DNA of 64,000 nt from the NCBI GenBank assembly GCA_964036155.1, contig OZ038422.1, positions 10,997,201 through 11,061,200 on the forward strand, written 5' to 3'. Of the stretch, positions 8,115 through 35,588 are shown piece by piece (the first letter of the stretch is position 1; every line of letters starts with the position of its first letter). The notes under the pieces were generated by a model, which was not told where the DNA came from, searched no databases, and was given only the letters and a program-made list of their open reading frames with translations. The DNA comes from Diploscapter coronatus (taxonomy: Eukaryota > Nematoda > Chromadorea > Rhabditida > Rhabditidae). Both the position numbers and the translations under genes were made by a program.

Positions 8115-11100
8115 TTAGTGGGTTGATGTTGAGAGGTTGACGGCTCCAGCTGAAGCGCTCGTAGTTGGTGTGGCTAGCGGATTCTGTGATGCACCGTTGG
8201 CATTATTGACATTCGCTGTATTGGGCGATGGCGTGCTCGACCCGTTTTTGGAAGATGGCGCCGGCGATGGCGAGGACGAAGCGGCGAGTTCTGAGGGTGC
8301 AGCGCCTAAAATATCATCGTAATTTACTCGACTCGAGCGGCATTTTATGTTTTAAAGGCAGTTTTTGAATTCATGGATTGAGTTCCGGGAAGGACACGAC
8401 TAGGTAATTATCTAATTAGAGCGGTCCGAGAGAAAGGATATGCCATGTCTATGCTATTATAAGAGGAATATTTGACAAGGTCGTCTGTCGCTAGTATAAG
8501 TGATGGCTATCTGAACGAGTGTCAATGGTTTGTCAAAATAATGAGCAGAATTTGGAATTTTCTAAATTTCCTAGTTAAAAGGGCAAAGTTCTTATCAAAT
8601 TGTCAGTGTATCATGGTCAAAGCGACAAAACTCGCATGTCGTTCAAAATCATTCGAACAAGATTACAATCGCTAGATTCGAGACATTACAAGTGATAAGA
8701 AACACTTGTCATTTTTCGGATAATCCACGTTTTATCTTTAGATTGAACCTTGCCTCTTCGTGTATTTTGCTCGACAGTTTCAGAGAAGCCAATTATTCGG
8801 CGGTTTGCGTGATCAAGTTAGAGTTTTTCGCGCCGAAAGACACCAAAATGTCTAGATTTCGCATTTGACTTCTTGGTTATTAGGGGATTAGCAGCGAAAA
8901 TGATAACGAATTACATGCAATCGAAAGTTTTAAGCATAGAAATGGTGAAAGCTACGTTGTAACTTTGATTTTTTATTAATTTTTTCTTACCGTTGGCTAG
9001 GTTAGCCGGTGCAGCTAAACCCATCAATGCTAGTGGGTTAAACATGGCAAATGGGGGTGGTGCCGGTCCGTTCGGTGGGCGAAGTCCCTAAAGTTTCCGG
9101 ATAAATGGGGCTTTGTTTGGTCATCTTTACCTGCATGGCAGCGAAAAACTGCGTCGGGAATCCTTGAGGGAACCGAGCAGCCATCGTAGCGAACATTTGC
9201 TGCTGAATGGCCTGCATCTGCTCTGGAGTCAGACCCTCGACGGCCGGCTGTCCCTCCTTCTTCGAGCTGCCAGCCTCCGACGTCTTCTCGTCATCGTCCT
9301 TCACTCTGCTGGCATTGGGCGAAATCTGATCAGCAATGCTCCAAATCTTGTTGCCAACAAGCTTCTTCGATGGAGAATTATCGCCTTTGAGATTGTTGTT
9401 GATCGATGCCAATGAGATCTCGGAGTCTAAAAATGGTTGAGTTGACCGATTTTCAATGAATTGAGTTTTTCTTACCATCTTTTCGGTCTGATCCTCCACT
9501 CGTGCTGCTGCTCGGTCTGTCAATCGCATCGATATCAGCCAAATCGTCGTCATCGTCGTCACCTCGTCGATTCTGAGGAGACCAGGTCATCTTGTTCTCC
9601 TTCTTCAATCGACGGCGTGCATTCGCAAACCACGTTGAAACCTAAATTTGCTAGAATAAGATCTTTGTTCCCCAGCAAATTTCACTGGCGTGAGAGTGGG
9701 TTTTATTGCTACACGATCGACATCGATATTTTAGCGGCCATATGTTATGTGCTGATTTTGAGATAAGGTTGGTTGATGGGTCTGTGGGACTGTTACCATT
9801 TGCACTGGCTAGTGCGTCCTTGGGCACATTAGGTAACTTGCCCCGACCAGCATTTCTAGCGAATGAAGTCATTTCCCGTTACACGCGGCATAAATCTTCC
9901 CCCACTCCTGATTGCTGGTGTGTAGGTAAGACAGATTCGTCGCGACTCGCGCAATAATCAGATTTTGGCATCTTTAGTGGATGAGATAGTGGGGAAATTT
10001 ATGAGTGTGTACAGCAAGAGAAAGGACAACTGACAAGGTGCTTGGGGGTAATGAAATCGCAAGTGTCACTGATCGTACAGAAAGATATGAGAAAAGGGGT
10101 ATGCGATTTTTTCGGGGTATTTCTCCCTAGAACTATGTTAATGAAGGTCTTGACATTGCATTCAAGATTTACAAAATCCCCACTTGTACTTGGCATTTTC
10201 GAATGGGTAACTCTCAAGGGTCTGATACAGTGACAGTGGTCGCTAATTCTCTAATTGCTGACTACTGTCGCGGCGATAGCTTTACAACTCACTGTCTTAC
10301 CCTCCATCGCTCGGTGCTTGGGGGAAAGCAATATCCTCTTTCTGCGTTCAATAATCCGATCATCAGATCTTCTAAGGTATTTAGGTATTTACTGTCGGCC
10401 TCTTTCTCCTCTTGCGTCTTTGCCCTCTCAGAACTTCAGCGCTTTGCTGCAATCTCTAGTGAAAAAGACGAAACACACCATATTCAATTTCAACCTGGCC
10501 TTAATCCGGGCTGTTGCTTAAAGACGTCGCTGTCGTTGTCGCAAAACTTTACGATTTTGTAAGTAGTGTTGTAAAACTGGGTGTAGTTGAAAACATGGAG
10601 GACAAAAAATTTGGAAAGCATGGATACTGTATGTTTTACCAGATGTTATTGTTCGCTTTTGAGTAATTGATCTCATACAGCTATTTTGTGCAGATTTCCG
10701 CGCGGGCGTTCTCTTGTAGACTCACTGACCCATAGGCTAATAAGTGGTCGATTCATCAATAGTTGCCAAACATGGCATTTTCGCTCCCATCGTTTCTCGC
10801 ACTTTTGACTATTGGCACCTGCCTTTAGCGCGCCCTTTGATCCCAACCGCCCAATATGTGTTATCTCAAATTCACGCACTATTTCTCCCACACCAACATG
10901 TGAGCACAATATTCTTCACTTCTGCTAATAGGCAGATGTCCTAATGATAAACGATGCGATGGTATTATGACACTAGAGCAAATCGTAAATAGGATAATTG
11001 TCGGAAGTACTGGAGTTGAAAGGAAGGACGCTGTGCTTGTAGGCGGAATTAGGCATATCGCTTTCAAATTAGCCCAAGATCTCTGAGAGCTAGATTACCT

Positions 11101-14100
11101 GAGTCAATGTCATCTTTGTCATGAGAGCCAAGACGAGTTTTTCGGCCTTGGTCGGATAAGGGTTCTTCCGATGTTCGGTCAGCCAATTCTAAAACGAGAT
11201 TTTTCTTGGAGCAGGAATTTATTTGCAAACCTTCAACGGCGCGGTAGTCTCCCGAGTAGCATTTTTGCGACGAACTCCGTCAAATCCGCCATAAGGATGG
11301 TATCCAGTGCTGTCGAATAGCAGACCCGGATACGGTCCACCTCCTAGCGACAGGAGATCAGATCGATTCTCCTAAAAATGGTACTTCGTCAGAATTGTAA
11401 CATTTTGCAGAGTTATCAACGTTTCTTTGTCTAATTATCTTGTTTCGCACTCGCCCCTCCTGATTAGTTGATATAATAACTGATAAGGCGACTTTAGCCG
11501 TCCCTGTCTTGTGGAGATATCGATGAAGATAAAGAGCGACGATGTTTCGTATGATCGGAAATATGAGAGAAAGAAAATCCCCATATTTGAAGAGGGTCAT
11601 CAGCATCCGCAGCAATGAAATGATAGATTTGTTTCGGTTCGGAATTCGATAGTCGTGAGAGCGTAAAGCGGGCACTTATGAGTGTGTATGCGGATAGGGC
11701 TGCGGGCGCGATTCGTAGATAAATCTCGCACGCAAATGATTATTCGAAGACAAGCATATTGGTGTCATATCACCTGTCTTATCATCTCTCGACGAGAATC
11801 TTGTAAATTATCTCAGGAATCGCGAAAATGTTTGCAAAATCTCGAGAATGATGGGAGATTTTTCTGTGAAAATTCGCGCATGAAGTCAATGTCAGAGGAG
11901 GGGTAGTCTCGCAATGAACAAGATAAATGTGTCTTTATTGTCATTGAGTTCGTCTGTATCACTGACTTTTCAAACGTCGAAAGATATGGTATCTCACTTC
12001 TCTGGCCCCCGAAGTTCCTTTCATTCGATTCATTCATTGAATTCTCGCAAAAAGAAACAATTCTAGTGCGCTGCGAAGGCGAGAATAAGACAAATGTTTC
12101 GCGTTTAGTTTCATGTACTTTTTCAATTTAGTTCAACGAAGAGAAAGACGGAAATTGAAGTGAGAGGGGAAGATAGAGAGACTGACTCGGACCTCAAGAA
12201 AACTGACAACTTGATAGGTTGTTTTAGCAAACAATAACTTGACCTTGGGGTGTAGAGTTAGCTGATTGAATCTAGTAGAGTATCGGAGTTGAATTTTGCA
12301 TTTTACATGCCAAATTTGAATACTGTAATGTACGCCTTCTATTGATATGCGATGAGTTGTGAAACAATTGTGTATACAAATCGAAGGCTATCTCGCCATT
12401 TGCCTCCCTTTTATTGCTAATTTTTGACCCGGATGCCGCAATGTCAAGGGGACAAAAATGCAAAATAGGGCTGACAAAAACTAAAGACAGCCTTAGCATT
12501 GTATTGAAATAGTAACATTTGATGATGTATAATGAACGTCTGACTCAATCCATCTCCTAATGCCTAAAATGAGACTGACAATGAAAGAATAGAAGAAGAA
12601 GAAGAAGAAGTACCCTGGGGTTATTTCTATCTAATATCATTGTGATGGTCAGGGGCGAACTTTCAGTGTAATGAATAGACTGAAATTCTACATTTAGGGC
12701 TAGTAAAAATAGGCATTTTGTCGAAAGAAACGTATCAAAATAGATCGCATAATCAGTAATTTGATTACATTTTGGTCAATAGTTTCAACTTTCTAATTTG
12801 CTAACCTAGTACCCTTGAGCAGCTAGTACGACTATGAGTCAGTCGTGGTCACACAATTTTAGGCAGGGGTTAAAACAAGAGACCCCTAACACAACAATGC
12901 AGTCATGTCCAAAATGGAAGAAGGGTGGGGAGATGAGTAGGACCGCGCAAAGCAGTAGAAATTGTCAAGACTCGATGAGAATACAATGCACTGGGGCAGG
13001 AGTTCATATTGAATTGAGACCAATATATTGATTCTCGATACAGTATTAATTGTTGTGTTGGATCGCCAGAAATTTCAATTTCTTTCTGCTGTTGAATTAG
13101 ATCGGCGACAATAACCGAAATTTTCGCGAGGCTTTGTTCGAGGATCGTCAAAAACAATGGTAGACAGGGATTTGCTGGTTGGAAATTTTACAGGATCACA
13201 TAGAGACTGCGGCGAATCGAGAGGGGTAGATATCGCGAAAAGCTCACTAAAGAGTGCTAATCGCGGGTGCCTCTTTCAATAGGGGTGTTTGGCAAGCAAC
13301 CGCCGCGATCAGATGGATCCCTTTTGCACAAGATTGTTGGACAAATAGAGAAATAAATATGATTGGCTGTGAGAGAGATCTCATTGAAAGTGAGAAGGTT
13401 CTTATCATTTTTGCCGAAATATTTCTCCATCTGTCATCTTTATGCTTTTGCTCGAGAAGTTGTTCACTCAGAGAAGAAATTACTTTGAGCGCAGCGCTAG
13501 CAGCGACTGCGTGCTTGTTGACATGTCGCGTTGACACGATTGGAGCAAGAGAAATAGTGCAAAGATGAAGGAGGTCGCAAGAAACTAGAGGGAATACGGT
13601 AGCAGACAGAGAAAGTTATTGAAGAAAGGACCCTTGCTGCTGCCCGTTTTTAGGCGATTAGCTGACAATCGTCTGTGAGAAAATGCGAGTCAATCTTATT
13701 CGGTCCTTTTCTCTAAGCTGCTCAATGTCTATACTATTTCTGCGCTTTCGAATTTCTCTAGTGCCTTTTATGAACCGCTACTATTTCATTCGCACTCTCT
13801 CTTTTCAGTGCTATTTCAAGAATTAGTTAGATGCTACTGAAGAAGCTTAACGTCTGCAATCACTGAAATGAGAAGTGTTAGAATTGCGCGCGTAGTTAGA
13901 CCATTGAAATTGGTTCAGAGTTCGGAAATAATTTAGAACAAACCCCTGATTTGTACAATGGAAATCAGATAAAGACTTTGATTGACAGGCAATTTTTTCT
14001 CAAAACAATGCTTCCTTTGATATTACGGTTCGGTATTTGACAAAAACGAATCCTTTTGGCAGCTAATTATACAGAAAGAAAGGGCAAATACAGAGATAGT

Positions 14101-16447
14101 CTTGTCTGATAGGATCTGAGTGAAATTCTTCCAAGATTTCTAGAGTTATAAAAGTTACGATGAGATTTGTTGCATCAGATAAGCGAGTCGGAGGCGCCAA
14201 ACGAAACGTAAATTTGAACTTGTAAACACGCGTGTCGCATTTGAACTAGTAGAAGGACGCGACATAGTTCATTTCGAGTTGAAGAAAAGAAACATTGATA
14301 CTCGGGAAGATGTCGAAAGAGATCGATAAACTTACGGATTGCATTCCGCCGGAAAACAAGACTGCTGCCGGATAGGGCAGACCAGACGCTGCTGCGCTGG
14401 CAGCCATGGCTTGCATCGCAGCCGCTTGCGGCAGTCCGCCCGGAAACGGAAATTGACCAAATAAAGGCGATCCTAGAATTTTTCGGATTTAATGAAGATC
14501 CTCGGCCTTGAAATGTTTACCTCCAGGCAAAAGCCGAACTGCCTCAGAATGACCTTCTTCGCTGATTATCGGGGTCGTCGATTGATTTGAGGGCATAAGC
14601 TGAAAACGATATGCCATTCTCTGGACCTTGCTTTGAGCTTGGTAATTTATAAAGACGTGGCTTTATCAGTTTTCATAAAGGAATGTGAAATTGTCCTGAC
14701 TAAAATAATAACCAGGTGTCTCCACCCAAGTTTGTGTTAGACTCGATATAAGATAAGAATGGAATTTTATATCTCGTAGATACAAGAGAAGTGGTGTCGT
14801 TATGAGTTGAAAGATACGGTTTGGATATTCAGAGGTGTTTCAATAGAGGGTGGACTGTAAGGCTCGCAGCTAGCAAGCTAGGTAAATAATTATAATTAGG
14901 AAGGTGGGAGAATCGATAAATCCGGATGAATATCTGTATTTTACGACACGTTTATTACGAGCTAAAGTATTAGCCAGAGCAGCTACGATGATGATGAAAT
15001 GACTCTGAAACAGCAGAGGGAAAAAGATGGAGAAACGGGGTTCGCGATTATGTTGATGAGATGGTAGATTAGAGAAAGAAAGGGGCGGAGTCCGAGGAGG
15101 GGAATGAGTGCTGCGCGAGACGAAGGATACAGCGACGAGGTCGAGAAATAGTACGGCCGACTTAGAGATGCCCGAGAGAATTGTTGAAACGGTTCTTTTC
15201 TCATTTTATGAAAAGGGCGGGACAAAAGTTTAGTGACGGAGCGAGAGTGATGAGACAAAATTAATGAAACAGTGGAATATCATATCACACGATAGGATGG
15301 GATGAATTTGGTGTTATTGAAAATCTCATGTGCGGATGATTTTATTGGATTTGAAAGATGCAATTTTCGCTAGCTTGAGATAAATTTGGATTCCACACAA
15401 TTTGAAAATTGTGCAAATTTTGTACTCACATGTAATATCCATTATGCTTCTGCAGATAAGCACATATGGAATGGGAGAGAATGAGATAATTGTCATATTT
15501 TCGCGTACCTGGCAGCTATACGCTCTTATCCGAACAGATATAACGAGCATCCGAGAAATAGGGTAATAAATAGAGATAGCAAGGAAATCGAGAAAGGATG
15601 TGCTAAATCGAAAAAGCTGCCTAAGGGTCATTAGCTTCGGAGACAATTAAGGGTAACAGATACGGGTGAAAATTAAAGATTATGAAAAATGAATAGTAGC
15701 ATGTTAAAATATGATTCATTTTTCTATGATTGAGTGAATCATCTTGTTCATAAATAAAGACAGCGCGCATCCAAGTTCGACTATTAGTAAATCGTAAATT
15801 GATATTTACTACGTGCGAACAAGCGTTATGGAGGAACATGGAAGATGGTAAAAGAATGCGAAAGTTTGCCATTTCGACAATAGTATGTCGTGACCAAATT
15901 AATTTACGGCGGTTAAAAGTCGAAAAAATCTACACGCAAGAAGTTTAATCGACTGTGTTGATGAAGTCGGTTAATTTTGACGCATCTTGCGATTTATTTA
16001 GGCGTGTGTTTGACCAATGTAATTAAGCAAGGGCCTCCAAGCAAAGACGCGACCTTTGTTGAATGAAAAACGCTTCGAGTATTGACTATGGGGTTGTAAG
16101 GTGAACGAACTTGTAAATTATTGCGGACAGTCGTAGTTTTCATATCTTTCAACACGTGGAGGGAGATTTCAATGTGTTTGAAAATCATGGTATGGGTACG
16201 CGCAGGGGGTTGTCGAGAAGAGAACCGTAAGATTTATGGCTATCGAAATATGAGAGCGAGAAAAACAGTCAAACAGTCGTCGGGAGGACGAATGATGACA
16301 CGGAAATGGATACAGAATTGGCTATCTTATGGGAGATTTATCGAACATGATAATCAAACATAACCGATATTTATGGGAGACTTGTTTTCTTTTTAGTTTT
16401 TCCAGACTTACCGAATTGAAAGCCCCATTTGCATTGAACGCCATCAT
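8115..16447 (-). CDS. irx-1: Iroquois-class TALE homeodomain transcription factor
   Basis: The nematode Iroquois homologue, about 410 residues from the chosen start. Minus-strand exons: 16412-16447, 14521-14599, 14336-14472, 11231-11371, 11099-11188, 9476-9641, 9131-9426, 8991-9087 and 8115-8305. The homeodomain (about residues 115-180) is split over three exons. It has the Iroquois signature [14 protein letters not shown], the TALE loop [15 protein letters not shown], and recognition helix [20 protein letters not shown] with the DNA-contacting Asn. An acidic run ([15 protein letters not shown]) follows immediately, as is usual for the class. The C-terminus is Pro/Ser/Asn/Ala-rich low complexity. 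The start is uncertain. I used tandem ATGs at 16442-16447, but the frame stays open upstream to a stop near 16574, and a further 5' exon is possible (see 19437-19711). Introns of 3.0, 1.8 and 1.5 kb stand out against neighbouring genes. It is head-to-head with the SOWAH-like gene. Confidence 0.93.
12591..12610. repeat. (GAA)n microsatellite
   Basis: Six to seven AGA/GAA units within the largest intron of the Iroquois gene. Confidence 0.8.
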
Positions 16448-18221
16448 CGATTTTAGCTTTTCCTGGATCGATCCCGAAGAATCCTGATCAGTGGGAGTAT
16501 CGATTTTAGCAATGTTTTCCAGCTTTTCGCACAAAAAATGGGCTTTTAGCGAGAATACCAAGGATAGTGAGGTCTAACTGAAATTAACTTATTTAGTTTG
16601 TCGTTGGATCGAAGAAAATCGAGAATATGGTTGAACGGTAGCGAGCGCGAAGTATAAAAATTAGGAAATGTAGCATTTTACGACTCGGCAATAAAATCAC
16701 GCCTTAGTAGGACGGGCTGACAACACTGGCAATAAAGTGATTATTCGCTGGAATGATTGAGAGAGGAGCACTGATAGGAGCAAAGAAGGAGCTACTGATG
16801 GCTGCTTAGAACTGATAGGCAAAAGTACCCAGGATGGGGCTTAGAAGGAAGAAATTAGTTGTTTGACAGCGGGGATTAACGAAAAATGTGAACAGATTCA
16901 GATAACGGAAGCGCTGAACTACACATTTTCGAATGCCCCTGTGAGGTTTGACAAATTGATTGATGAACTGTCTACATCAAACATGTAAATGACAAAAAAT
17001 TTACACCACGTTTTCGTCTATTCGCGAATTAAACAAAAAACAATTTGCTATTCGGCAGAACTTGATGAAGATACGCTATATGCTATTGTTGAATACCAAC
17101 GCGCTCTCGCGTGAACATTTTATTGAAATTTATACAATACGAAATGGAGAAAACTGAAAATTTCGATACGCGCGTGTGGCGCGTTTTGCCTAATTTGAAA
17201 TCGAGAAAGATACGAGAGACAATGAAAAATGCCATTGAACGCGGAAACAAAAGGGAGGGTTACTTTTACTTATTTACAAAACGACATAAATGATGCGAGT
17301 AACATTAGTCTCAACTGATGAAATTCAGTCTTTAATTCATGAAACAAGAGAAAAAGATCGTTTACAAGATAAACTTGTACATTTTAGTCAGATGAGTTTC
17401 GAATTTGACAAAATGAAATCATAGAATAATCAAACTTATTTCGATGACTAACAGGGTGATTCTTGGAAATAAGTAAACTTGGTACAAAGCGATGACTATG
17501 AATATTTGATAGGCTGGGAAGAAGAGTGATGTGGATGAGACAGAAAGTGGGCGGAGTCTGGAGAATTTTGATGCGGTACCTTGTAGAACAAGCTGCTTTG
17601 GGGAGTATGGCGGTTGTCAATTTCTTTGGATGTCTCTCGGTGTGTCTCGCTCTCTAATCCCCCCAAGCCACGCCCCTGGACTAGCTAAAGAACACGCGTT
17701 ATTGGAGGAAAACATGGGTTAGAGAAGAGAGAGTGTAGAGCAACTACAAGCCCATAGCTTGTCTTTGCAGAGAGAGAGCAACATGTAGGCGGAGTCATGT
17801 CTCTCGTTCTCCCAGATGCGAGTGTGTCGTATGTATGTTGGGAGGTGTATACGGTAACAAATGAATGAGCGCTATAGCTTGCTATAAAAGCTCTAGAGCA
17901 AATAGATGGCGAAATACTAGGCAAAATCGAGAGCGCTCCACCAGATTAATTATCGATTATCTTTAGAAGGTTATTTACATGGTTAAAATTAGAGGCGCGA
18001 CGACGAAATAAACTCAAAATGCTACCAACTTCCAATTTCTAAACAATGGAAACTGCCGACGAGATGATGTTTTTGTGCATAGGTAGAATTAGCGACTTTT
18101 ATGATTCTTCGAAAAATTTAATGAAACGAGAGGAATTCCAAATTCATATCGCCAAAAACGACGTGAAAAGACTGGTAATCTAACAAGTTATAGCAAATTA
18201 TCTAAATGAGGGAGCGCCCAT

Positions 18222-18237
18222 AGCAGCAGCAGCAGCA
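18222..18237. repeat. (AGC)n microsatellite
   Basis: Five AGC units in non-coding DNA upstream of the Iroquois gene; no open exon accompanies it. Confidence 0.7.
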
Positions 18238-19436
18238 AAATAGTAACGATGAAATATAAAAATAATTGAAACAATGGGTGAAATGGCTGATGCCCACTGC
18301 AAAGCAATGCTTTGCAAAAATGGCATTTCGACTGATACAAAAGCGGGGTGGTTGAATCTATTTGCGTGTCACTAAATGATTATTTCTATGACCGGTAAGT
18401 GGACAGAAGGTGAAAAACGGCGACGAGAGACTATTTGAAGCCTCAGGCGTATACAGAAATAATGCATAGTGAAACACGTATGCGCAAGTAAAAACACAAT
18501 AACCATTTATGGGAGGAGAGGAGGCAAGAGTGAACTGTGTAAGGGCGTAGTAGAGGTAATGTGTGTGGGTAAATGGTTAGGTATTAGGAAAAGAAATCAT
18601 TTAGCGAGAGAATGAAAATTGACAACAATCAAGAAATAGTGCGTCATGTAGAGAGACAATCACACAATGAAACGGTCAAGCAACGGTCGACTGGCGAAAA
18701 ACCTTGTCGGTCAAAGTGCCGACGGGCAAAAACGCCCAGAGCGACCGATACGCGGCAGAACGAAATTTGTGTAATGACCTTTTCAGAAGAGGCATCAAAA
18801 GGAATAGATGCACGTACACGTGCGTCGCTTGCCTAGAGAAATTAAATCAGACTATCAGAACAAAATGAAACAAGTATTGTTGTTAAATGAGGCACTCAAA
18901 CAGACACCGAATTAGGTTAAAAGACCCCCGAAATAGAAACGAATAGGCTAAATATGTCCTGCCATTGTGATGTGATTAGAAACATTTGGACGAAATTAGG
19001 CGCACATTGGTTAAAAAATGACGAAATTCTAAATGGCTAGGGGAATTTTAGATCAAGCAATTCGATAACGTTGTTGTGTCGACGATAGTTCTGGAATTAG
19101 AGTAAACGAGGCGAAAATGAGAATGTCTGACATCGAAAATAGTTTATTTTCACGGCACACGGCGGTTTTTTGGTGTATTGTTTCGTTAAATGATCACATG
19201 CGTTTGCAAAACATGCATTTTCCATGTCGTACGCGTGTTGAATTTTTAGTGCCAAACTTGAGTGAATGGACTGGTAGTAGTGCGATAATGACGATGATGA
19301 TATGGTGATGATTATGATTGTTTTTGATGAAGGGTCGTCCGTGGCCACTACTCATGCGAAAAGAAGAACGAGAACGGTCAAAACATATGTCCTGTTCGAC
19401 AATTTGCTACTCCGATTGTATTACTTTAACGAAATA

Positions 19437-19711
19437 TTATTTGCGTTCAATTTCGTCAGTCCCTTTGAAGGCTGAATTGGAGTGGTTGAAAACCCATTTC
19501 AGAGTGAATTGAGATAAGCTACTGCTGCTACTGCCAGAGCTATGTGAGGAGCGGCTCGCGCGATCTCTTTCCGGGGGTAATTCTAGAAGGGTGTGTGGTG
19601 GAGTCATTTTCGCACACAATCACTTGGAGAGCTTAGAGCGCTTCTTCCTTTCTCACAAGACACCGGAATAAGTGCCTGCTAACACCTCACTTTAGTGACA
19701 CCCGCCGCTCT
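19437..19711 (-). other. Candidate upstream exon of the Iroquois gene (Ser-rich)
   Basis: On the minus strand a 35-nt pyrimidine-rich tract ends in TCTCTTGCAG at 19712. It is followed by a 104-nt leader, then ATG at 19607. The frame runs to a stop at 19437 and encodes MTPPHTLLELPPERD, then a Ser-rich stretch (HSSGSSSSSLSQ). A phase-0 donor could be used after LKW, joining in frame to the Iroquois exon near 16.5 kb through a GCGAAAAG or GATCAG acceptor. This would supply the missing N-terminus. The donor (GTTTTC) is weak and nothing here is diagnostic of Iroquois, so it could also be chance or a separate small gene. Confidence 0.3.
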
Positions 19712-22165: not shown

Positions 22166-22181
22166 TCTCTCTCTCTCTCTC
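22166..22181. repeat. (CT)n microsatellite
   Basis: Eight TC units in the divergent non-coding block; CT/GA runs of this kind are common in nematode promoters. Confidence 0.7.
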
Positions 22182-25100
22182 GATTATAGCGAAGAAACTT
22201 GAACTATTTCTCGAGTTTTTCTGCGTCCCTACCGAGTATTCTCAACTTTGTACATTCCTGTAAATGCGCTCGTTCCTTATGCACATTTGAGGACGCGCTT
22301 ATCACAGAAAATACACAGGATTTGAGATGATAGTATGCAGAAAAATGGGATTATCGCACCCAGAATGAGTGATAGGTAAATAACTTTGCCAGAAAATTGA
22401 TTGGCCGAGAAGGACTTCAGAGAAACACTCATAGAAGAAAGTTAATTTCCTGAGATATTCTTACTTTGGTCAAGGAATCTAGACATAAGGAAATTTTGCA
22501 CGAAGAATTAAAACACGAACGGATTTCGGAAATGACAAAGGAACTTTACGCAAATGTAAAGGGAAATGTTCATTTATGGATAGGAAGGAGACTGAGTGAA
22601 AAAGATTTAATTTCTCGATCGTGTAGGTAGGATAAATATGGCATCTAAAGTGATTTGAACGAGAGAATCTGTGTTTCTCAAGACAAATTGGTGTTCTCAT
22701 CGGTTGACAAGTTTGGGAAATTCGAAAGGGCACGAGTCTCTTTGCTCGAATGTGGTGTGAGGTCAATTCACTCACTGGAATCCCTTTAAAAATGGCACTA
22801 TTTCATCTTCACAACTTCACACCTTCATACAATTTTAGATGTTTGAGTGGAAACAATGAAATTCTCCTGTCGAATGCGGCGATTATCAGCACTTTCATGG
22901 GAGATGTCTGACTAGTTTGTGAACATTTTCTTAAGTGATTTTGAAAATGAAATATGGTAGCCTTCAATTATATATCGTAAAGTTCAAAAGGGGATTAGAT
23001 GGACCTAACCCTATCAACCTGTTGGCATGCCGGTGGATAATTCTTGTTTCGAGCGACTATCTCATATCCGATCGGCCTCTAATTAACCTCTTAGTCTCAA
23101 CCATATCTTTGCCGATTCGATTGTGAACGACATGGGCAGATGTTTCTGTCTGATTTCATTCGGAAATTCGATGGAATTGCTCCGAAATCGTGAGAACTAA
23201 ATTAATTACGAATGAAACACGTGTCAAAATGGACATCGATAATCTATGCGCATTTCGTCTTGTTTAGAGGGGATTTATTAGCAACAACTCTCGGGGATAG
23301 ATTCAAATGCGCTGAAGGACCTAATATGGGCAGGCAGACTTATGCAAATTAACTAAGGCCATCCTAGGGTATTTGGAGATTTTATAGTGGACTTGAGTAG
23401 GTATTCAAAGAAGGATGCACTTTTGAACATCTTGTGATCAAACAGATGATCTATCCAATTTTTCCCGACTACCCGGTATTATCATTAATCATTCGAACAC
23501 AGATAAGCACCTTGGAGGTAGACCAGCGTGTTGAACAAACCTGGCGCCTGTTTGAAAGAAGGATTACGAAAATGCTCAAGTTTTCTTGCGTCAATGTCCC
23601 ACTTCGATTTGATGGTTTTTCTCGGCTCGATTTCTGTCATTTCTCAGCAAGCAAACCTCTGTTTAGTGTGAAAAATGGCACTTCTCACCCGCTGCGGGTT
23701 TGATGCTGAAAAATGTCAAAAAGTGTCAACGAGATGTGAGCTGCGGTGACTAGTTATTTGATGGGAAAATCGTTTTGTGAAAAAGTAATAAAAGCAGTTT
23801 GAGGGACCTGTAACAAGCACTTTGATGGCATTATGAACAATTGGGTAAATTTTTAGTTTTCTACAGTACCCAAGACTTGCATTATTAATGATTTTACAAT
23901 CTCCTTATTTTCGAACCACCAAAATGGACCAGTTGATATGATCTAGTGCTGTATTACAAAATCTTGGGGAGATGATCTAACCTCGATAATTTGACATATT
24001 AATCTCGGGAGGGGGAGGGCATGTGTATGGATTGGATAAATGAATAAGTGGGGATAACCTTTTACCTATTCCTGGATTGTAATAATATGAGTTATACGAT
24101 GATAGACTCGGAGTGTGTTGCACAATTTAGAGAGGTCGAGAGATGGGAGAGGGGGGGGGAGAAATTATGAGATCCACAATAGAGAGATGTGTTACGTTCC
24201 CTTTTAATCTGTATAAACAATGCATCGCTTGGATTTATCCGGAGCTATATGATATCCCCCTGCTGTTTTGCATGGATGCGGTCTAAATTGACACCTTTCA
24301 GTCACACAGCCAGATTTGGACAGTTGATTGATAGCGGATGACCGAATTAAAGAGCCATACAAAAGGTGTGAAACGGTCCAACAGATGGTCTGGAATATTG
24401 ACATTCACATGAAGATATGGGCTCATAATGAATTTTTTACACAAACTACAAAGGACTCTCCATGTATGACAAATTTGCAGCCACCCATCTTTCGTGGGAA
24501 CTTCCAGCGATGAAACAAAGCAATCCGCCGCAGTTTTGGTACATAAAACGGCGCGTTTGTAGGCGATAAATAAAAATTTAGTGTGACATAAAATCGGATA
24601 AATTTGGGGACAAATTTGATTACGATCTATTTTTGTACAACATTTGCTTCACCTCCTTTCAAAAAATCTGTAAACTCATAACAGTTCTTCCTGGGCTCGT
24701 TTTTGGCCTAACGCAGCTCTGCTTCTGTAAACCCAGTGCTGCTTTACCAATTCCTTATTTTCACCGTCAAAAAATAGACCCTCCCCGCTTTTGAGGTGAA
24801 ATATACCACCCTGCATTGAGACCACTATGCATAAGGAAGTGAGAGATGGGAAAGAGCGGAAAGTTGCACATTATTTTATGCTTTTTCCTCTGGCCAAAAA
24901 AATCTAGGTACTCCACTAATTTACACCCTTTACTCGACTGTTCATAATTATTCATCGACTTTGAAAAGGGGAATCGCACGTGTACAGCAAAGTTTATAAG
25001 CAGTGGTATTTAGTGCAAAATTCGGCTGTTTATAGTATCTTGGACAACACTTGTTTAGTTCGTTTAAACGATGATGTGCAGGAAATTTGATATGGTAACA

Positions 25101-25861
25101 ACTCGCGCCGCTGGGTGAACAATGTGCTGTGGGAACCAAATTGCAAAAACTTCGAGTCGTTTTGTACCACTTTTGACCGAGGGATAGTTTACAGCGGCGA
25201 TCTTCAACCTATGTGTAGGGAATTAGTGAATGGTCGTAATGAGCAGCAATTTTGAGGTGAAATAAGCGAGTTCAAAATAGAAGAGTAGAAGGGAACAAGC
25301 ATCGTGTGTTTACGTCAGTTCTTGTTGCCGTAATAGAAACTTATAATTTTCAATACTTGAGTAAGATTTGCAAACTATTCCCCGAGGACTTCACCGATGG
25401 ACAGAACCCATCTAATAGCCTGCTAAGATACTCGCTATTGAGATTTGCTGCAATAACAAGACGAAGCATTGCGAATCAAGCGAAGCAAGACTTGTTGAAA
25501 GTCAGATCAACCCGAGATAAACCACACAAGATGCATGTGTCAAGACTTTAGTTGGATAAAATTGAAATAAGGAAATAGAAATGTGGAATTGAAAGAACGG
25601 AACACTACAAGAACAAATGTTGTCATGCTCCTTTAATGGCAATAAATGGGCATAAAACGCATTGGGGATGATGGCTATGCAAATGAGCCGTAACAGGGCT
25701 TCATACAAACGTAGAAAATATTGAAAAATTAATATTTTCGCGTTTTTCTCTCAAATTGATCTTTCAATCTCTTCTCATATTGTATCTATTTCATCCTCTT
25801 ACTCGCGATTCATTTTTTTGCAACATCTTTTGTCGAACTTCAAAATTCAGGAGAGGCAGCA

Positions 25862-28800
25862 ATGCAGCGCCGATCGAACGACCCGCGTGATTCTGATGGA
25901 CTCAAAGATACCATCCTCAAGGCCATCTACAACAATGTGGTATGAAATTAAAAAAAAAAAATTTTCAAAGCCAAAGAAATTGCAGAGTGAAGCCTCCGAG
26001 GCCCTGTCGTATCGCAATCCGTCCGAAAACACGACGACGCCTTCGTCGTCTAACTACGATGTGCATCGTGCGCAGTCGAGTCGCAGCGACGGTAATGTCT
26101 ACGGACATCACTCGCCGTTCTCCTTCAATGCACAACACTCGCTCAAAAGGTATCAAAACTTGTACAACAACCCAATAGGCTTTCATGCAAAAAAAAATCG
26201 AGAAAAAAACGACGAAATTTGCAGCGAGAACTTCAAGACGCCGCTGGTTTTGGACGTGCTATCGCCCGGATGCTCGGCGCCCCTCTCCCCATGCGTGCTA
26301 TCTGAAGCAAATCTCAGCAACCGCCGAACTAACGACTCGTTGATCAGTGGAAAGGTAAAATTTTGAGATTTTTGTGTCAAATCAATAATTTCCTTGTAAT
26401 TAACCGATTGTTGTTGTTCGGTGGGCAATTTTCGTCGGGGTAACGTGTGTTTTAGGCTTTGTCGATTAGATGAGACATTTGGCAGGCGGGCAAGTTGATG
26501 CGCTGTTAAGCGAGATTTATGATGACATCGGGAAATTAGAGGAGACATCGAAGAGTCTTGAGAGAATCAGAGGAAAATTTTATCAGGGATAATGGGTTAT
26601 TGAGACGCGGAAGAGAAAGCTAAGCCATCTTGCACCCACTGATATTTATTGCCACCTCGGCAGTGTAGAAATGTGCGCTCATTTATCGTCGCGAGCAGCA
26701 GAGGAAATATCTACATGTGTCTTGAGGGTAGAGCAGCAATGAAGAGATAGAGAATTGTCAGCCGAGAGTGTGATTTTGATTGGTTGATTGTAAAGAGGCA
26801 GGAGAGTAGAAGGAAGAGAAGAATGATAATGTGATAAGACATCATCGCTGCGATTTGTGGAATCCTCTTACTCCATGGTTTTTGAGAAAAATCTTGCTTC
26901 GATGAAGAATTGATTTATTTGAGTTTTGTACAATGACTAACCTCTTCCTTTGGAACAAGTAAACTATGTGAATAGGTAGGGAGAAAACAGGAAAGACAAT
27001 CTCTCGATGCTCGGTGCTAGTGCTAGCAGAGGTGATTTGTAATCCAACACCTCGGGTACGACACCTCTGGGTGTCAGGAATGGACGCGTCCAAAAGACAA
27101 GACGAGAGAAGCACTGCTCCTGCTCCTACAACTGCTGCTGCCTGGCACACTCAGCATATCGCTACTGTCATTTGACATGTCGAGTCAAATCGCGGTCGTC
27201 GAAATTTGACACGTTTAACACTTCGTTAGACTAAACTATGAGTGGCAAGTCGAATTTCTTTGACGCTCAAGAACGCGGAATTTTGCACAAGCAAGGTGTG
27301 AGCCGAAACCCTGCACCGCACCGCATATCGCAGCGGGCGAAAATCTCGATTGTCTGTTACAAAGAGGTGTTATTAGTGCAACAGCAGCAGGAATTTTAAC
27401 ACAGATATGATTGATAAGCGTAGAATGTTGCAGACTACGGTAGCACACTTGCAAACAGCTTTTACGAAATGCTATTTCAAGAAGCGATTATTTCGTTCAA
27501 AGACCCTCATGTCGATTACCGTAGTTTGAATTTTGTTCAATTCCCCAGAAAAGTGCTTGTAAAAGATAAGTGGTAAGCCAGCAGAGCATCTTTCGCACTA
27601 AATATGGCTATTCTGTTGTGAACAACAGTGAGCAGAAGAAGAGGTCGTCCATTTTCAGCCCACCGAATAAATAACCTTTGATGGGCGCGCTTCTCCTTTC
27701 GATGTGGAATAAAAACTCGAATGAAATTAGAGCGCACACTGAAAGAGAAGCGCCCGGAGTGAGTAAGTGAGAAGACAAACTTTTCACTACACGAATTACC
27801 GGAAAAATTATTGAGTACGACGAAAAATACGGGCAGGCGAATAATTATACAAACTCTTTTCGAACCTTTGTAAAGATGAGGGACTTTGAAAAGGAGGAAG
27901 ATGTTTAGAATTATTCGAGAAGATAGAGGAATTTCGAACCACAGATTGTTTGAGCCGATGTATTGTGTATGTTGCAGAGGTATGGAGACAATTAAAAGTT
28001 GCCACTACATATGTTTCGAAGCTTAGAGCGCTGGTTTATGAGTTTTGAATGGGATGTTTGGAGATTGAGTGGATAAAGATAGGGAGAAATAGAGTGACCT
28101 AAAGAAACGAAGATAGAGGGAAAGAGAGCGAATAAGATTCATTGGCCGGCTCAAGCAACTGTTCCACTTGTAACCATTCGAAAGTCGTGGAAATGTTATC
28201 GAAGTTTGAAAAAAAACAAGAAAATTAGAGGATCCGACTACTCATGATGCCATCAAATAATCATGAGTGACTTCTCGGAACCAAATTTAGCCGAATAATC
28301 GAAATTTCGATTAAATGGTCCACATTTATGTTAATTAGATGTGGTTTCGGCAGGATATGAGGGTGGGACCGAAAGAGATAATCACTATTCTGAGACCTTA
28401 AATTGGAGGACCATAAATTTTGTCTTCCTTTGAGCTCGAAAATGGCGAAATTACAGCCGCACCCTCAACCAATTATGAAATTACAATCGAGTTCCTGCAA
28501 AAATGTCTATGTGTTTCAGTTACGCAAAGTTCGAGAATAATGACATGTCATAGATGAGAAAAACGATTCGCCCTCGATTATCGGCCGGAAAGCCTTGTTA
28601 ATGAAATGAGTGAGGGTGGTTTCACTTGAGGTTTTGGTCTCGGAATTCGCCGCTGATCGACTGAAGTTTGTAATTGAGGAACGATAATTATGCGTGATAA
28701 TTGTCGCATCCGAGTAAATTCGGCTATTTTGAGCGATTAGCGTGAGGGTGTAACGTGGGCTTGTTTTCGAATGTTTTGGATGGATTTGAATTACAGAAAT

Positions 28801-31800
28801 TTTGCAGGGATCAATTTTCAATTGGCCTGAATTTCTGTGGATTGGTTCTCTATTCCAATTTATACGCGCAATCTAACCGACCCTCCCAAAATGTGCTCCG
28901 AAATGGGTCAGATAATGTAGATAATCTTAATGAAGTGGGGAAGCGACTGTCCGTTCTCCTAGTGCGCATTCGGTATGTGAGAGAGCTTCTATGGCAGCTT
29001 TTACTCGGTTAAGTGGTCGGTCGGAGAATTTAGGGGGATCTAATGACTCAGTCGCTGTGTGAAAGAGCGTACGTGTTTACTTGTGTTAGGCAATCTCGAG
29101 TGGAGTATAGAAGGCATATCATCTGGACTTATTGTTGGAAAAAGTAAAAAAAAAAGATCTTTCCTGGAATCCCCAACACTTCTACTTTTGGCCGCATGAA
29201 ATTATGCTTTTAAAATGTCATCATAAAAATTGCGAACTATTATATGAAAAGATGATAACACATCTTTAGCTCGTTCTACCTATGGTAGTTCCCAAGTTCT
29301 GCAGAAACTAGGCTAAATTGGCGAGGGAGTGAGACTGGGGAGCATGTTGAGGGTGTTCATTTTCTTGTAAATTACTATGGAGGACAAGTAAAACCGCTAG
29401 TTGAACTCGGCAAATTCTGGGGAGCAAAACTAAAACTACTGTCTCAGGGCATAATTGCTTCTCTAATTGAGGAAAACTGTGTCCGATATTTCAAAAAGTC
29501 AACTGTAAAATCGAGGGGTTTTGTCGCAGATTTATTGGTGGTTTTGATTGATGAGTTGGATTGGGAATAGTGAGAAAGATATCGTAAATAAATTAGAATA
29601 TACGCTCGACATGTGGTTGGTCACAAGTTTCTTAAGACTTTAGGACGCATATGGAATTCATTCTAAATGCGGAGAAGACACTGATTTTGTTTATGTTACA
29701 AGTTTCGTCGATAGGTTACTGTATAGTGAAAGTTCCTTCATTCTCGCGGATTCGAATGTGTGGACCTTGGGATGATCGCGCGTATTTGGTGTCATGAATG
29801 GATTAGGATAATCTCGTTTTGTCCTCAATCACTCGAACAATAGCGTAACACACTTGACTAATCTCAACTTTTCGAGGATATTCATGCCATTACGCAATGA
29901 GAATGATGAATATGGTATTTTGAATGAATTTGTTTTTGATTCTACGTCCTTGACTCGGATCATGGGTAAAGACCGGATAATTGTGGTAATGATAGATGAA
30001 TAACATGTGGCAGAGTTCCCTAACCGAAATCAAGACTACCCAATGTTTTGGCTGATTGAATAACACTTACCTCCCCTCGCGCAGCATCTTAGACGGTTTT
30101 GTTTCCGCGTTTCTCAGGCTCTCTCAGTTCCTAGGGCTATTTTTCGAGTCAATTTTTGTCCAGATGATATGCTAAGTGAGCGATCTCGTATAATAATAAC
30201 GCATTATAAACATGTGTGAAGAAAGATGAAGTGGCATAGAGAATTGAGAGAAGGGACTCAGAGACACTTTGTTATATTTGAGGGGGACCTAAATGATGAA
30301 ATTATGAGGTGGAAAATGATGGATTGCCGGTGGCAATTTTTAGGATATTGCAAGATATTATTTGAAGTCTACTTGGAGTTCATATTTTAACCTCATTAAA
30401 TCTACAGTATTCTTTCCTTGTTAGTGTTTCTGCAACGTGATGAAGCTACATCAGCAAGCCTTCGGTTACTAAAACCAGTCTAATCTAGTATGCAATCCAA
30501 TGCGCTAAAAGTAAAATGCCGCGGCCGCCATTATACGCGTGTCAAATAAATGTGAGTAAATCTACGCCGAAATGAATGGAATAAGCGAGTTTGACGAGGA
30601 TTTTTCGAAGCTTTAAACGTTTCAAAGCGACTCAGATAATTTGAATGGAGTGTCGTGTGACAATTTAGCGCTAGTGAATGAGCGTTATATGGTAGTCTAT
30701 TCAAGTCGAGAATTACTAATGTGGCACTTTTCTGAGGAAGTAAAAAATGGTGTTTCAGTATCAGAGCATCTTTATGAGAGTGGGAATTTGACCAGGGTAC
30801 TAAAATCACGGAGTAAAAGCTGATCTTCAGGGTGTGACGGCTTACACCTAGATGATACAGGTGCAGTTAAATTAAAAAAAAAAAAAACAAAAACGAATTT
30901 TATAATGAGATTTTCGTCATCTAGGAATCTTTTAATTGAATAGGTTTCATGGGTAATTTATTTTTGCAAAGTTGTGAGCGACGGACAGATGAACAACTTT
31001 CTTCCTTTGATATGTCCCCAACTCGAGACAAAATCCCTCAAATTGGAGTTCAAAGTTTTAAAACGTTAATTAAATAACATTAGACATCCGTTCAATCAAG
31101 TCCCCAATCTTCAGATGATAGAATCGAATCTTGAGAACATTTCTGACAAAAATTATGCTCCTAGGGATCTCGCCGCAAGGCATAGTACCGATTACCGATT
31201 TTGTTTTTCCGCATTATAAGTGAAAATTTGGATACGTTAATTCGGCACTGAAATAAGCAATCAGTCAGTTTTCATTCATTTCTGCAATAGCTCCGCGAAT
31301 TCTTACCGCTCTTTTTCAAATGAACGAGAAATTATGATTTTGGATAACTTACAATCGTTTAAATATGTTCAAATTCTGACTGCAAATTCAATTGATGAAA
31401 AGAATGTTAGTAGAAATGAAAGTTCGGAGGACGTTTTCTCGACGGTATAACTTTTGATGGGATTATCCATTTTGAACACGGTAAAAAGTTCCAGCATTAA
31501 CAAAAATCGATATTTCACATGGACAAATTTTTTCTATCCACCAGTCTTCTTATTTCAAAATCCACTTGCGCACTCTACTTATATCCTCAGTTCTTATTCT
31601 TCGGCTATTGAAACGATGAATCGAATTATTTTGCAGACAAGTACCGTAATCCTATAGAGAAAGATTTGTAGAGAATAAGAAAATGGGGCTGCGCACGCCG
31701 CGCCGATCTTGTTACATACATAGAGGAGCGGCCCGCGAAAAAGTATTAAGAGGCAGGAAAATAGAGATTGAAGGCGAATTAGACACTGAGAAGTTCTTGA

Positions 31801-34800
31801 AATGAGGCGCACTGCACTCTTCAAATGTGAATTATTATTTTTGACAACTTTAAGAGGGACTAACGCTCGATCGGTCGGCGGGTCGTCTTTTGCGATGTGA
31901 ATTTGTTGACCTCAAATACAACAACGGCTGTATTTTGGGGATTACTGTAGAAATGAATTTGATCGTAATTATCCGAGTTTTTGTAAGAACGTATAAAATT
32001 GAAAGGACGACCGAAATCTTATACCCAATACACCCATGTGGGCGACTATTTACCTTATTAGGTAAGAAAAAGCGGAGAAAAAGGAGCCGCGCAACAATTA
32101 GAGGCATTTTTTCATAAAGAAAAATGACTGAGAAATATGAATGGTCAATAAATGAGTGAAATTGTGGTCATCTTGAAGATTATTTGTGGATGAAATCATG
32201 GAAATCAAAGATTTGATGTAAATTTCAGTTGACAATGGTCCAAATTCGAGAATTGTAATTGGCGAGATCGGGAAGAGCGATAGGTTTGTAGCGAGGAAAA
32301 TTTGCCGCCAGTGTTGCGCAGGTTTCGTGAGAATGAAAGATAACCGAAAATTGAGAGGCAAAGGAAAACGGGCCGAGCCTATGAACTGTCGGATGAAATT
32401 AGACGATTTCACACGTGATGAGCCGCGGAGGGCACGAAATGGAAGTCGGATCGAATCCATCGATTTTGCATTACATTTCGACAAATCTGAAACAAGGGAT
32501 TTTCGGAAAACGAAGTTCTTTTCTCGATATCAGTTAAAGAATGGAAATGGTTCAATGATAGATCAGAATAATTACGAGAAATGACATTAACCTAGAGCGA
32601 TGAGCTAGTAAATGATACATCCTGTTATGTATGCACGCCAAGATAATTCGCGCCAATAATACAAAGCTCAACTGGAGGAAATTACAAGCTCGAAAATAGT
32701 GAGAGACATGAGAGGGCGCAAAGATAATCCCTAAAATTGTAAATTGCTAGACGAGAGCATGTGCCGATAAATTACGCTATGTTAATAAATTTGACCCCCC
32801 TATGAATGGGGATCAAGTTATGAGACAATATGAAACAGGGGGACTACTGTAGCCAAGGATTAATAGGTGGAACATAACTAGATCGGCGCGGAGAAATCGT
32901 GTAGATTCGAAAAAGTTACTGCTGCGTGTGGATGAAACAAGGCAAAAACTAGACACAACCGTGTATGGGCATTATACACATAATTGGACGACGAAATCCG
33001 TGTGTGTGTGTGTGTGCGTGCATTAAAGTTGAAATGAATTGTGGATACGGTAATTTGTTGGGCAGAAATGGAGAATTTTATGAGCCGAATTCGACATGAC
33101 AGGGACAAAATAATAATCGTGATTTGATATTGTCGAGAGGAATTGTGAGTCAGGTCAAAACATTAGTCGATATCGAAAAAGACATTTTCGAGATGATATT
33201 TGGAAAAGAAAATGGTTTTGGGAAAGAAACATTTGTTCCAAGATTAGGAAAATGATACAACTTAAAATTAGAAAAAAAAAAAAAAACGTTTTTCAGGAAA
33301 ACCGCTTCTCGTTCTCCGCCTTCGATAGGACGATCTTCGAGTCGTATGGTATCAAGTGGTTCCGCGCCTGCAGGACCGGCGACCTGTTCACCGCGAAGAG
33401 TCTCCTGGATGCGCATGTAAGAAAGGCGAATGAAAGCGCGGATACAAAATCGATTTCCAGCCGGAACTCATCTCGTTCGGCATCGGCATTCACCACGAGC
33501 ACACGTGCGTCCATCTGGCCTGCTCCGGATCGTACCTCGAGCTGATGTCGCTCCTCAAGAGTCGCGGTGCGGACTTCAATGCGAGAACTTCGGTGTGTTC
33601 ATTTCTTTACTTGTTTGCTTCATTTCTCAACAAATCCCTTCAGGCCGGCTACACGGTGCTTCACCTGGCTGCTATCAGAAACGACAAGCGCATGGTGAGG
33701 ATGCTGGTCGAAAAATACGGTAAGGAGAAACTCCGATTGAACTTGAGAAATTGATATACGACGAATCGAAGAGATTAGTGCGAAAGCTTCATTAGATTGT
33801 CGTATATTTGCTATCGTTCAAGTCATAAAGAAATAGAAGGAGAAATGAAGAGAGGAAGGGGAATGGAGTCTTATTATTTGACTATTTGTGCTCATATCAG
33901 CAGCAGGTAGTCGGTGCGCTAGAATCTCTTTCGAGCAAGAGAAGGAAAATAGAACAGGAAATTGAGAGACCAACGCAGAACAAGCCGCGAAACGGCTCTC
34001 GACTATTTCTCCGATTTGATCGAGAGAGGCTGTTAATCTGTGTAAGCTATCGTATCGTATCGGTCTGGTGAAAAGACGGCGAAGGATAGAAGAACTTGAG
34101 GAGGGAATAAAGAAGATGAAGCTACTGTCAACAAGATCATTTCCCCTTCCACTCTTCAAATACTGTAGCGAATGATAAGCACGAGGGACTGAAAATATGA
34201 TTTCAAAAATAATAATGAAATTGATTTTCAGGAGTCGACCCGACGATCACGGACATGCTCGGATACACGTACGAACACTACGCGCCGTGGATCATCGAAC
34301 ACGCCTACAAATGCGGTAGGTATTTTCGACCGCACAAAATCAAAGAATGACTATGTGATCTAAGAAATGCGCACTTTTCGCGTCAATCTAATGTTTCCGC
34401 ATGTATGTGCAAGCGGTGAAGCAGCAACGTTCGCGCGGATTTGACAGCTCGCGTTTTTCTTGCGGAAGCGCAAAGCGTGGACGTTTGTTGCGTCATCGCG
34501 TCAAGATGCGTCAATGGAAACATTTGTAGAGCTGTCATTTGACGTTGTTCTTGGAAATCTAAAACTTGGATATCTGGGGGATAAAGGAATATCCTTGGGA
34601 ATTTATTTGACGACTCTGGAGGAAAGATCTGACGCTCTGATATAACTGTCTTGTGATAGTTGATGAGCTAAAGACAATCGAAAATGAGAAATGTTGGTCG
34701 TCGGCCTCTTGCAAAAGCAGGAATTCACTCTCGAGTGGACGACGACCGTATCATCAAATCGCAATCATTTTGCGGGCCCCGATTAGCAATGATAGTGCTA

Positions 34801-35588
34801 GTTTTCTCTGAGCACTATTGGAATTAAATGCTATTTCCAAGGTGTCCGCACAATTTGTTCGCAAGCAGCTGCGGTGATTTGATCGAGATTCGAGAGCACG
34901 ATTAATGAGCGTCCGATCGGTCGGTGAAAAATGATGATTACGGGGACCGAAATGGGGGAAATTCCTATACAAGACGATTTTATAAATCTAAGTTCATAGT
35001 GAAATGTGAAAGGTTCAATTGGCAAAATTGCAAATTCATTTGTGTTTACAGAATTTTAACCGACGAGATTCACAAAGTATGGGATAAGGGAGCAGCGGGT
35101 TTGACAAGTTTTGACAGCTGCATATACAGGCAGTCGGAGGTCTGTTTGACGCTCTGTAAATGAGACGAGATATTGTTGAACTTTGAGAGAATTAAAGAAA
35201 ATGGGTATAATTGTGAGAAAATGAGGTAGAGATGGAGATTTTGAAGAGGGTAAAGGGCAGAGAGTACTGTGACATTGGCGTGTTGTTCTAGCACAGCGGA
35301 TTGACGTGAAAAGTGCGCATTAGAACAATAATAGAGGGATCATACGACTAGTGGGACGTAAATGTACAAAATCATGATGGAATTTTAGGTGACAACAGAT
35401 TTTCGCCCAGATGTACCACACCATCGACTGGGTCTACTGATACGGGCTCGAATAAGGTTTTTTTTTAGAAAAATCACATTTTATTGAGATTCGAAGTTCA
35501 GGTTTCGAATCTGTTTCGGATTCCCTCGACGATTGCCGACCCTCTGCGTCAGATCGTCAGCTACGCCGAGTCGAAGCTCACCAAATAG
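25862..35588 (+). CDS. SOWAH (sosondowah)-like ankyrin repeat protein
   Basis: Predicted 291 residues from exons 25862-25939, 25986-26149, 26225-26354, 33297-33416, 33461-33592, 33644-33719, 34232-34315 and 35497-35588. The start follows an acceptor-like CAAAATTCAG by 11 nt, fitting trans-splicing. Residues 1-124 are polar, Ser/Asn-rich and unstructured. Residues 125-235 form a compact ankyrin region: GIKWFRACRTGDLFTAKSLL, then EHTCVHLACSGSYLELMSLL, then NARTSAGYTVLHLAAI with MVRMLVEKYG. The NARTSxGYTxLHLAA core with the following VDxxxxDxxGYT matches SOWAH family proteins, whose function is poorly known. The last junction is the weakest: the first acceptor in phase is GAAG at 35496. The intron between the N-terminal and ankyrin parts is 6.9 kb. 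All phases agree across it, but it rests on phase alone, so the 5' exons could belong to another transcript. Being beside Iroquois strengthens the family call. Confidence 0.72.
26355..33296 (+). other. 6.9-kb intron of the SOWAH-like gene
   Basis: By far the largest intron in the window; most others are 40-400 nt. No nested gene is evident; open frames up to about 130 codons here have no codon bias or recognisable motifs. It carries AT-rich homeodomain-type sites (TTAATTAA near 31066-31072, GTTAATTAG near 28330) and a (TG)n run at 33001-33016. The sense strand is purine-rich in long stretches, for example 28021-28140, unlike the T-rich introns of the other plus-strand genes. By analogy with other bilaterians it is a candidate home for Iroquois enhancers. 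Confidence 0.55.
33001..33016. repeat. (TG)n microsatellite
   Basis: Eight TG units near the 3' end of the long SOWAH-like intron. Confidence 0.8.

Follow-up and report, generated by a model that had tools for sequence, protein, structure and literature searches.

A probable, much-diverged Sowah gene adjoins the Iroquois gene of the nematode Diploscapter coronatus

Iroquois (Irx) homeobox genes and the gene Sowah (CG10632) form a gene pair known from many animals. The Irx-Sowah block is described as conserved across bilaterians, tetrapods excepted (PMC5585340, PMC5803294), and as a prime case in which regulatory DNA has kept genes in order for more than 600 million years (PMC5803294). In most bilaterians other than vertebrates, Irx is reported to be linked to CG10632, which lies either 5' of the Irx cluster or inside it, and several nematodes have a single Irx gene (Kerner et al. 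2009, PMC2674049). In the Drosophila Iroquois complex, regulatory DNA of ara and caup is housed in the introns of sowah (PMC12311624). For C. elegans irx-1, one conserved noncoding element is listed (PMC1852409). The passages searched gave no statement on whether nematodes have Irx-Sowah linkage or lack it; the key study, Maeso et al. 2012, may contain one, and PMC8851819 contains neither gene name. Here we describe a nematode locus, in a 64,000-nucleotide stretch of Diploscapter coronatus DNA (the window), where Irx and an ankyrin gene that is probably Sowah stand side by side.

The two genes are neighbours in head-to-head orientation, and the pair is present on both chromosome copies of the assembly. 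We consider it fairly likely that the locus represents the bilaterian Irx-Sowah block in Diploscapter, with a fast-evolving Sowah orthologue and the two genes 11 kb apart. As in the bilaterian Irx-CG10632 block, the probable Sowah adjoins Irx on its 5' side, has a large intron and is accompanied by noncoding DNA of lower divergence. Unlike that block, the worm locus has a single Irx gene, presumably the orthologue of C. elegans irx-1, and not a cluster; its Sowah-like protein is highly divergent, and its enhancers, including any in the large intron like those of Drosophila sowah, are candidates only. The locus probably adds a nematode example to an already known arrangement and is notable mainly for its much-changed bystander protein.

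The Irx gene, on the minus strand (14617-8115), comprises eight exons and encodes 404 amino acids with no internal stop, GT/AG intron borders and matching phases. Exon 1 (14521-14617) begins with the start codon at 14617, splices in phase to exon 2 and is almost unchanged on the other chromosome copy; exon 2 (14336-14472) has an open frame and GT/AG borders. The homeodomain spans three exons: its first part lies in exon 3 (11231-11371) and its end in exon 5 (9476-9641), both recognized from homeodomain residues in the translation, and its middle lies in exon 4 (11099-11188), which matches Homeobox_KN at 3e-18. Exon 6 (9131-9426) and exon 7 (8991-9087) have open frames, the latter with a fitting phase, and exon 8 (8115-8305) carries the stop codon. 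The homeodomain is of the TALE type, with the three-residue loop, and the best 19 of 35 matches among solved chains were TALE homeodomains (TGIF, PKNOX, Meis, PBX and extradenticle). A KIWSIAD stretch that follows the acidic region resembles what we take to be a conserved Irx segment. When the homeodomain was searched exon by exon against the genome (E up to 0.01), the four matches were two exons of this gene and the same two on its allele. These data bear out the original prediction of an Iroquois homeobox gene on the minus strand. A start near 16.4 kb was also considered and rejected: the gene is open and in phase without the exon it implies, and the in-phase start at 14617 was taken. The starts of both genes are predicted from sequence alone.

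The ankyrin gene lies on the plus strand (25862-35588), and its nine exons encode 312 amino acids, in agreement with the GenBank model. Exons 1-3 (25862-25939, 25986-26149 and 26225-26354; block 25862-26354) match the protein 'WR25_16124 isoform A [Diploscapter pachys]' (P0001; a hypothetical protein). They are followed by a third intron of 6942 bp (26355-33296), the candidate site of Irx regulatory elements. Exons 4-7 (33297-33416, 33461-33592, 33644-33719 and 34232-34315; block 33297-34315) encode the ankyrin core and give Pfam ankyrin matches, and exons 8-9 with the stop codon (35389-35456 and 35502-35588; block 35389-35588) match the C-terminus of P0001. Over exons 1-7, identity to P0001 is 98% across the query, and the P0001 sequence differs from both alleles of the D. 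coronatus gene. The SOWAH-type core motif of the original prediction, NARTSAGYTVLHLAA, is present. Within intron 3, about 345 bp at 31001-31345 are missing from the other copy (in 31001-32000, 637 of 1000 bases could be aligned), and a GT microsatellite occupies 33000-33016, upstream of exon 4.

The two copies that carry the pair are C1 (87.7 Mb), of which the window is positions 10997201-11061200, and C2 (82.0 Mb); with C3 (13 kb) they make up the three contigs of the 169.7-Mb assembly. C2 is an allelic copy, colinear with the whole window at a BLASTN identity of 92-96% save for a gap near 31.0-31.3 kb, and it carries the first seven exons of the ankyrin gene in intact form. The presence of two long homologous contigs fits the single chromosome pair of the Diploscapter karyotype. 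In Irx exons 1-6, the alleles differ by 12 synonymous and five nonsynonymous changes in 309 codons (pN/pS ∼0.13). The Sowah-like gene carries 21 and 10, respectively, in 313 codons (pN/pS ∼0.15; last exon out of phase), of which its in-phase exons 1-7 account for 17 and six in 261 codons. Both genes thus look to be under purifying selection.

The start codons of the pair are separated by 11,244 bp (interval 14618-25861), a candidate for shared regulatory DNA. This distance replaces the 9.4 kb given in the original prediction, since the Irx model starts at 14617. The adjacency and divergent orientation described there agree with the gene models on both copies, as does the absence of a gene between the two, to the extent that ORF substitution patterns and Rfam give no clear sign of one. 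The interval contains 54 partly overlapping open reading frames (ORFs) of at least 60 amino acids, with pooled changes between copies of 115 synonymous versus 258 nonsynonymous. Four of the 54 passed a crude screen for purifying selection, each on just three or four synonymous changes. According to Rfam, there was no match in the window at gathering thresholds.

To characterize the noncoding DNA of the locus, we compared the two chromosome copies. Between 8.3 and 33.3 kb, 694 of 23012 noncoding sites (3.0%) differ: 2.6% in the Irx introns, 3.1% in the interval (341/11155) and 3.3% in intron 3 of the Sowah-like gene (213/6521). The flanks, coding sequence included, are more diverged, at 4.7% in 36-64 kb (1298/27622) and 5.4% in 1-4 kb. 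In 500-bp blocks, which are non-independent and come from a single locus, the locus is less diverged than the right flank with p 7e-12. The longest stretch identical between the copies, of 303 bp (30437-30739; chance untested), lies in intron 3; the second longest, of 258 bp (14906-15163), lies ∼290 bp upstream of the Irx start codon. The lower noncoding divergence fits regulatory constraint without proving that a block exists.

Low noncoding divergence may also stem from base composition or from gene conversion, which counts against a regulatory reading. More specifically, a low rate of mutation or gene conversion confined to this region, and not selection, could have kept the copies alike, and the lower divergence does form one broad stretch of ∼4-35 kb. 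By contrast, the fourfold sites of the two genes inside that stretch differ at 22 of 386 positions (5.7%; Fisher p 0.006 versus the noncoding DNA of the locus), so the mutation rate does not look low throughout. This internal control is small and noisy, with 9 of 227 sites (4.0%) in Irx alone and 13 of 159 (8.2%) in the Sowah-like gene. On these data, we regard conversion or low mutation as a rather unlikely source of the pattern.

If the locus is a regulatory block, the cis-regulatory elements of Irx would probably sit both in the 5' interval that the two genes share and in the large intron 3 of the Sowah-like gene. Breaking the pair would then damage Irx expression, and the Sowah-like gene would be retained as a bystander. 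We infer both the enhancers in intron and interval and their part in holding the pair together. The earlier proposal that constraint has kept the two genes together agrees with the less diverged noncoding DNA at the locus, and its enhancers in the Sowah intron stay at the level of inference. A related possibility is that the gene is Sowah and the linkage ancestral, with nothing holding the pair now: it might merely be unbroken as yet, or only the shared promoter region might matter. The linkage described here comes from one genome, in which the two chromosome copies do not stand for two lineages, and its enhancers are candidates, both of which leave room for such an account. Set against it, the noncoding DNA of the interval and intron 3 is less diverged than the fourfold sites and the flank, and we judge it improbable that the linkage is unheld.

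We then considered whether the neighbour of Irx is Sowah. A bait search, which scored 7994 candidates, returned 2023 proteins, of which 120 were listed, genuine Sowah proteins among them. The Sowah set comprised 22 proteins: 19 passing a Sowah motif filter among the 120 listed, and P0080, P0108 and P0112, added by hand. A profile of 124 positions was built from 19 Sowah cores. In one alignment, the target was colinear with the C-terminal ankyrin core of Sowah from the N-cap tryptophan to the final tyrosine, its exons 4-7 covering positions 13-123 of the 124. In BLASTP against 118 proteins, the best eight targets were Sowahs, and Sowahs made up 17 of the first 22. When Sowah profiles were contrasted six-fold with other-ankyrin profiles, the target scored +5.0 and +3.9, on the Sowah side. 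In this contrast the 22 Sowahs scored +64 to +123, and all 52 windows from other ankyrins were negative (maximum −7.3, median −68). The 10 ankyrin ORF windows from the Diploscapter genome itself, six of them distinct after allelic pairs were joined, were likewise all negative (−11.4 to −40.8).

For 14 of 15 Sowahs searched against the window only, the ankyrin exons of the target were the best or equal-best match, with weak E values of 2e-5 to 0.12; with the fifteenth, P0098, these exons also matched first. No canonical Sowah was found elsewhere in the genome among the 54 exon matches of the Sowah core P0062 (E up to 1). The first of these 54 was integrin-linked kinase (ILK), and other ankyrins followed. 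ILK (L046/L047; C2:31.88 Mb and C1:33.89 Mb) was examined as a rival Sowah and rejected on reading its exons; its LHWAAKEGH segment mimics the Sowah signature. In the profile contrast, ILK scored −35.5.

A tree with other ankyrin proteins, the check proposed with the original prediction, gave a divided answer. With 48 rows, the target was sister to 20 Sowahs with support of 86/82; the node was not starred, the target branch was long (2.4) and the bootstrap had not fully settled. In an earlier set of 53 rows, which had more long rows, support was 18/44, and a single clade was not rejected (approximately unbiased test, p 0.53).

This weaker tree is one of several results that weigh against a Sowah identity and would suit an unrelated ankyrin-repeat gene, placed beside Irx by chance in a lineage that has lost Sowah. 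On the Sowah profile, the window allele scored 64.5 bits and P0001 59.5; the 22 Sowahs scored 163-207, and other ankyrins reached at most 63.0. After both classes had been decayed in silico into a comparable range of scores, Sowahs stayed near +45 in the contrast and other ankyrins near −36. The zone of 0 to +10 that holds the target was reached by none of 355 decayed Sowahs and by ∼4 of 542 decayed other ankyrins (0.7%). Lying between the two score zones, the target therefore fits neither class. The Sowah signature (D...G.T.LHWA.K.G, RD..G) is altered in the target, which reads VHL for LHW and TD for RD. By hand count, 16 of 26 columns invariant among eight Sowahs are kept, mostly at general ankyrin positions. 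The target is also absent from the 54 genome matches of the Sowah core; its own core is split over short exons.

The N-terminal winged-helix domain of Sowah likewise appears to be missing. P0001 is without PF25877, the winged-helix family, in the family listing, and no convincing match was obtained in the window or the genome: winged-helix queries from the fish Sowah P0072 and from P0085 gave E values of 1.8 and 0.27, respectively, against the genome, and ten Sowah N-termini gave a best E of 0.41 against the window. PF25877 is listed for 12 of the 22 Sowahs and is thus common and not universal in this sample, although incomplete sequences may account for some of the 10 without it. The silence of the Pfam copy used was disregarded, as that copy was blind to this family even in known carriers. 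The BLASTP result carries its own reservations: the protein set was gathered by a profile that included the target and the Sowah baits, and the margin was narrow, at 62.8 bits for the best Sowah and 55.1 for the best other ankyrin. Among the best 60 of 377 matches to solved structures, none was named Sowah; all were ankyrins, designed ankyrins or ankyrin-bearing proteins. With only the Diploscapter sequence as query, two protein searches gave three and two matches, all of them the same gene or near-copies, and were uninformative about other nematodes.

A chance neighbour is nonetheless quite improbable, given the eight Sowahs that head the 118 BLASTP targets, the 86/82 placement beside Sowah, a contrast in which the target is positive and all 10 own-genome ankyrin windows are negative, and a probability of ∼1% or less that a given neighbour is an ankyrin gene, assuming 15,000-20,000 genes and at least ∼41 ankyrin loci on C1 (a hand count and a lower bound, with 150 of 382 candidates scored). 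Sowah orthology is probable on the sequence comparisons. Overall, we think it likely that the ankyrin gene is a divergent Sowah, a judgement to which its position next to Irx contributes no less than its sequence. That place enters as a prior from the literature and not as an independent test of linkage. The identity first proposed for the gene thus draws on the top BLASTP targets, the colinear core and one of two trees, and is at odds with the profile score, the signature residues and the missing winged helix.

Taking the locus as an Irx-Sowah block, we tentatively suggest that the linkage has persisted while much of the Sowah protein has not: the winged helix and many family residues would be lost, and the bystander, with its slowly diverging intronic and intergenic DNA, would still lie beside Irx. 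If this were true, regulatory DNA, and not the function of the bystander protein, would hold the block together, and the block would reach into nematodes. With a bystander that has drifted so far, what the DNA does could be told apart from what the protein does. A single-Irx locus in a nematode would also offer a small, testable version of the block in relatives of C. elegans.

Other genes in the window were recognized from single exons, all on the plus strand. To the left of Irx lie an exon of a TM2-domain gene (3902-4129; TM2 5.6e-13) and an exon match to keratinocyte-associated protein 2 (2138-2353; Keratin_assoc 4.1e-8). Beyond the Sowah-like gene, an exon of a hexokinase gene lies at 49321-49638 (Hexokinase_1 2.7e-20).

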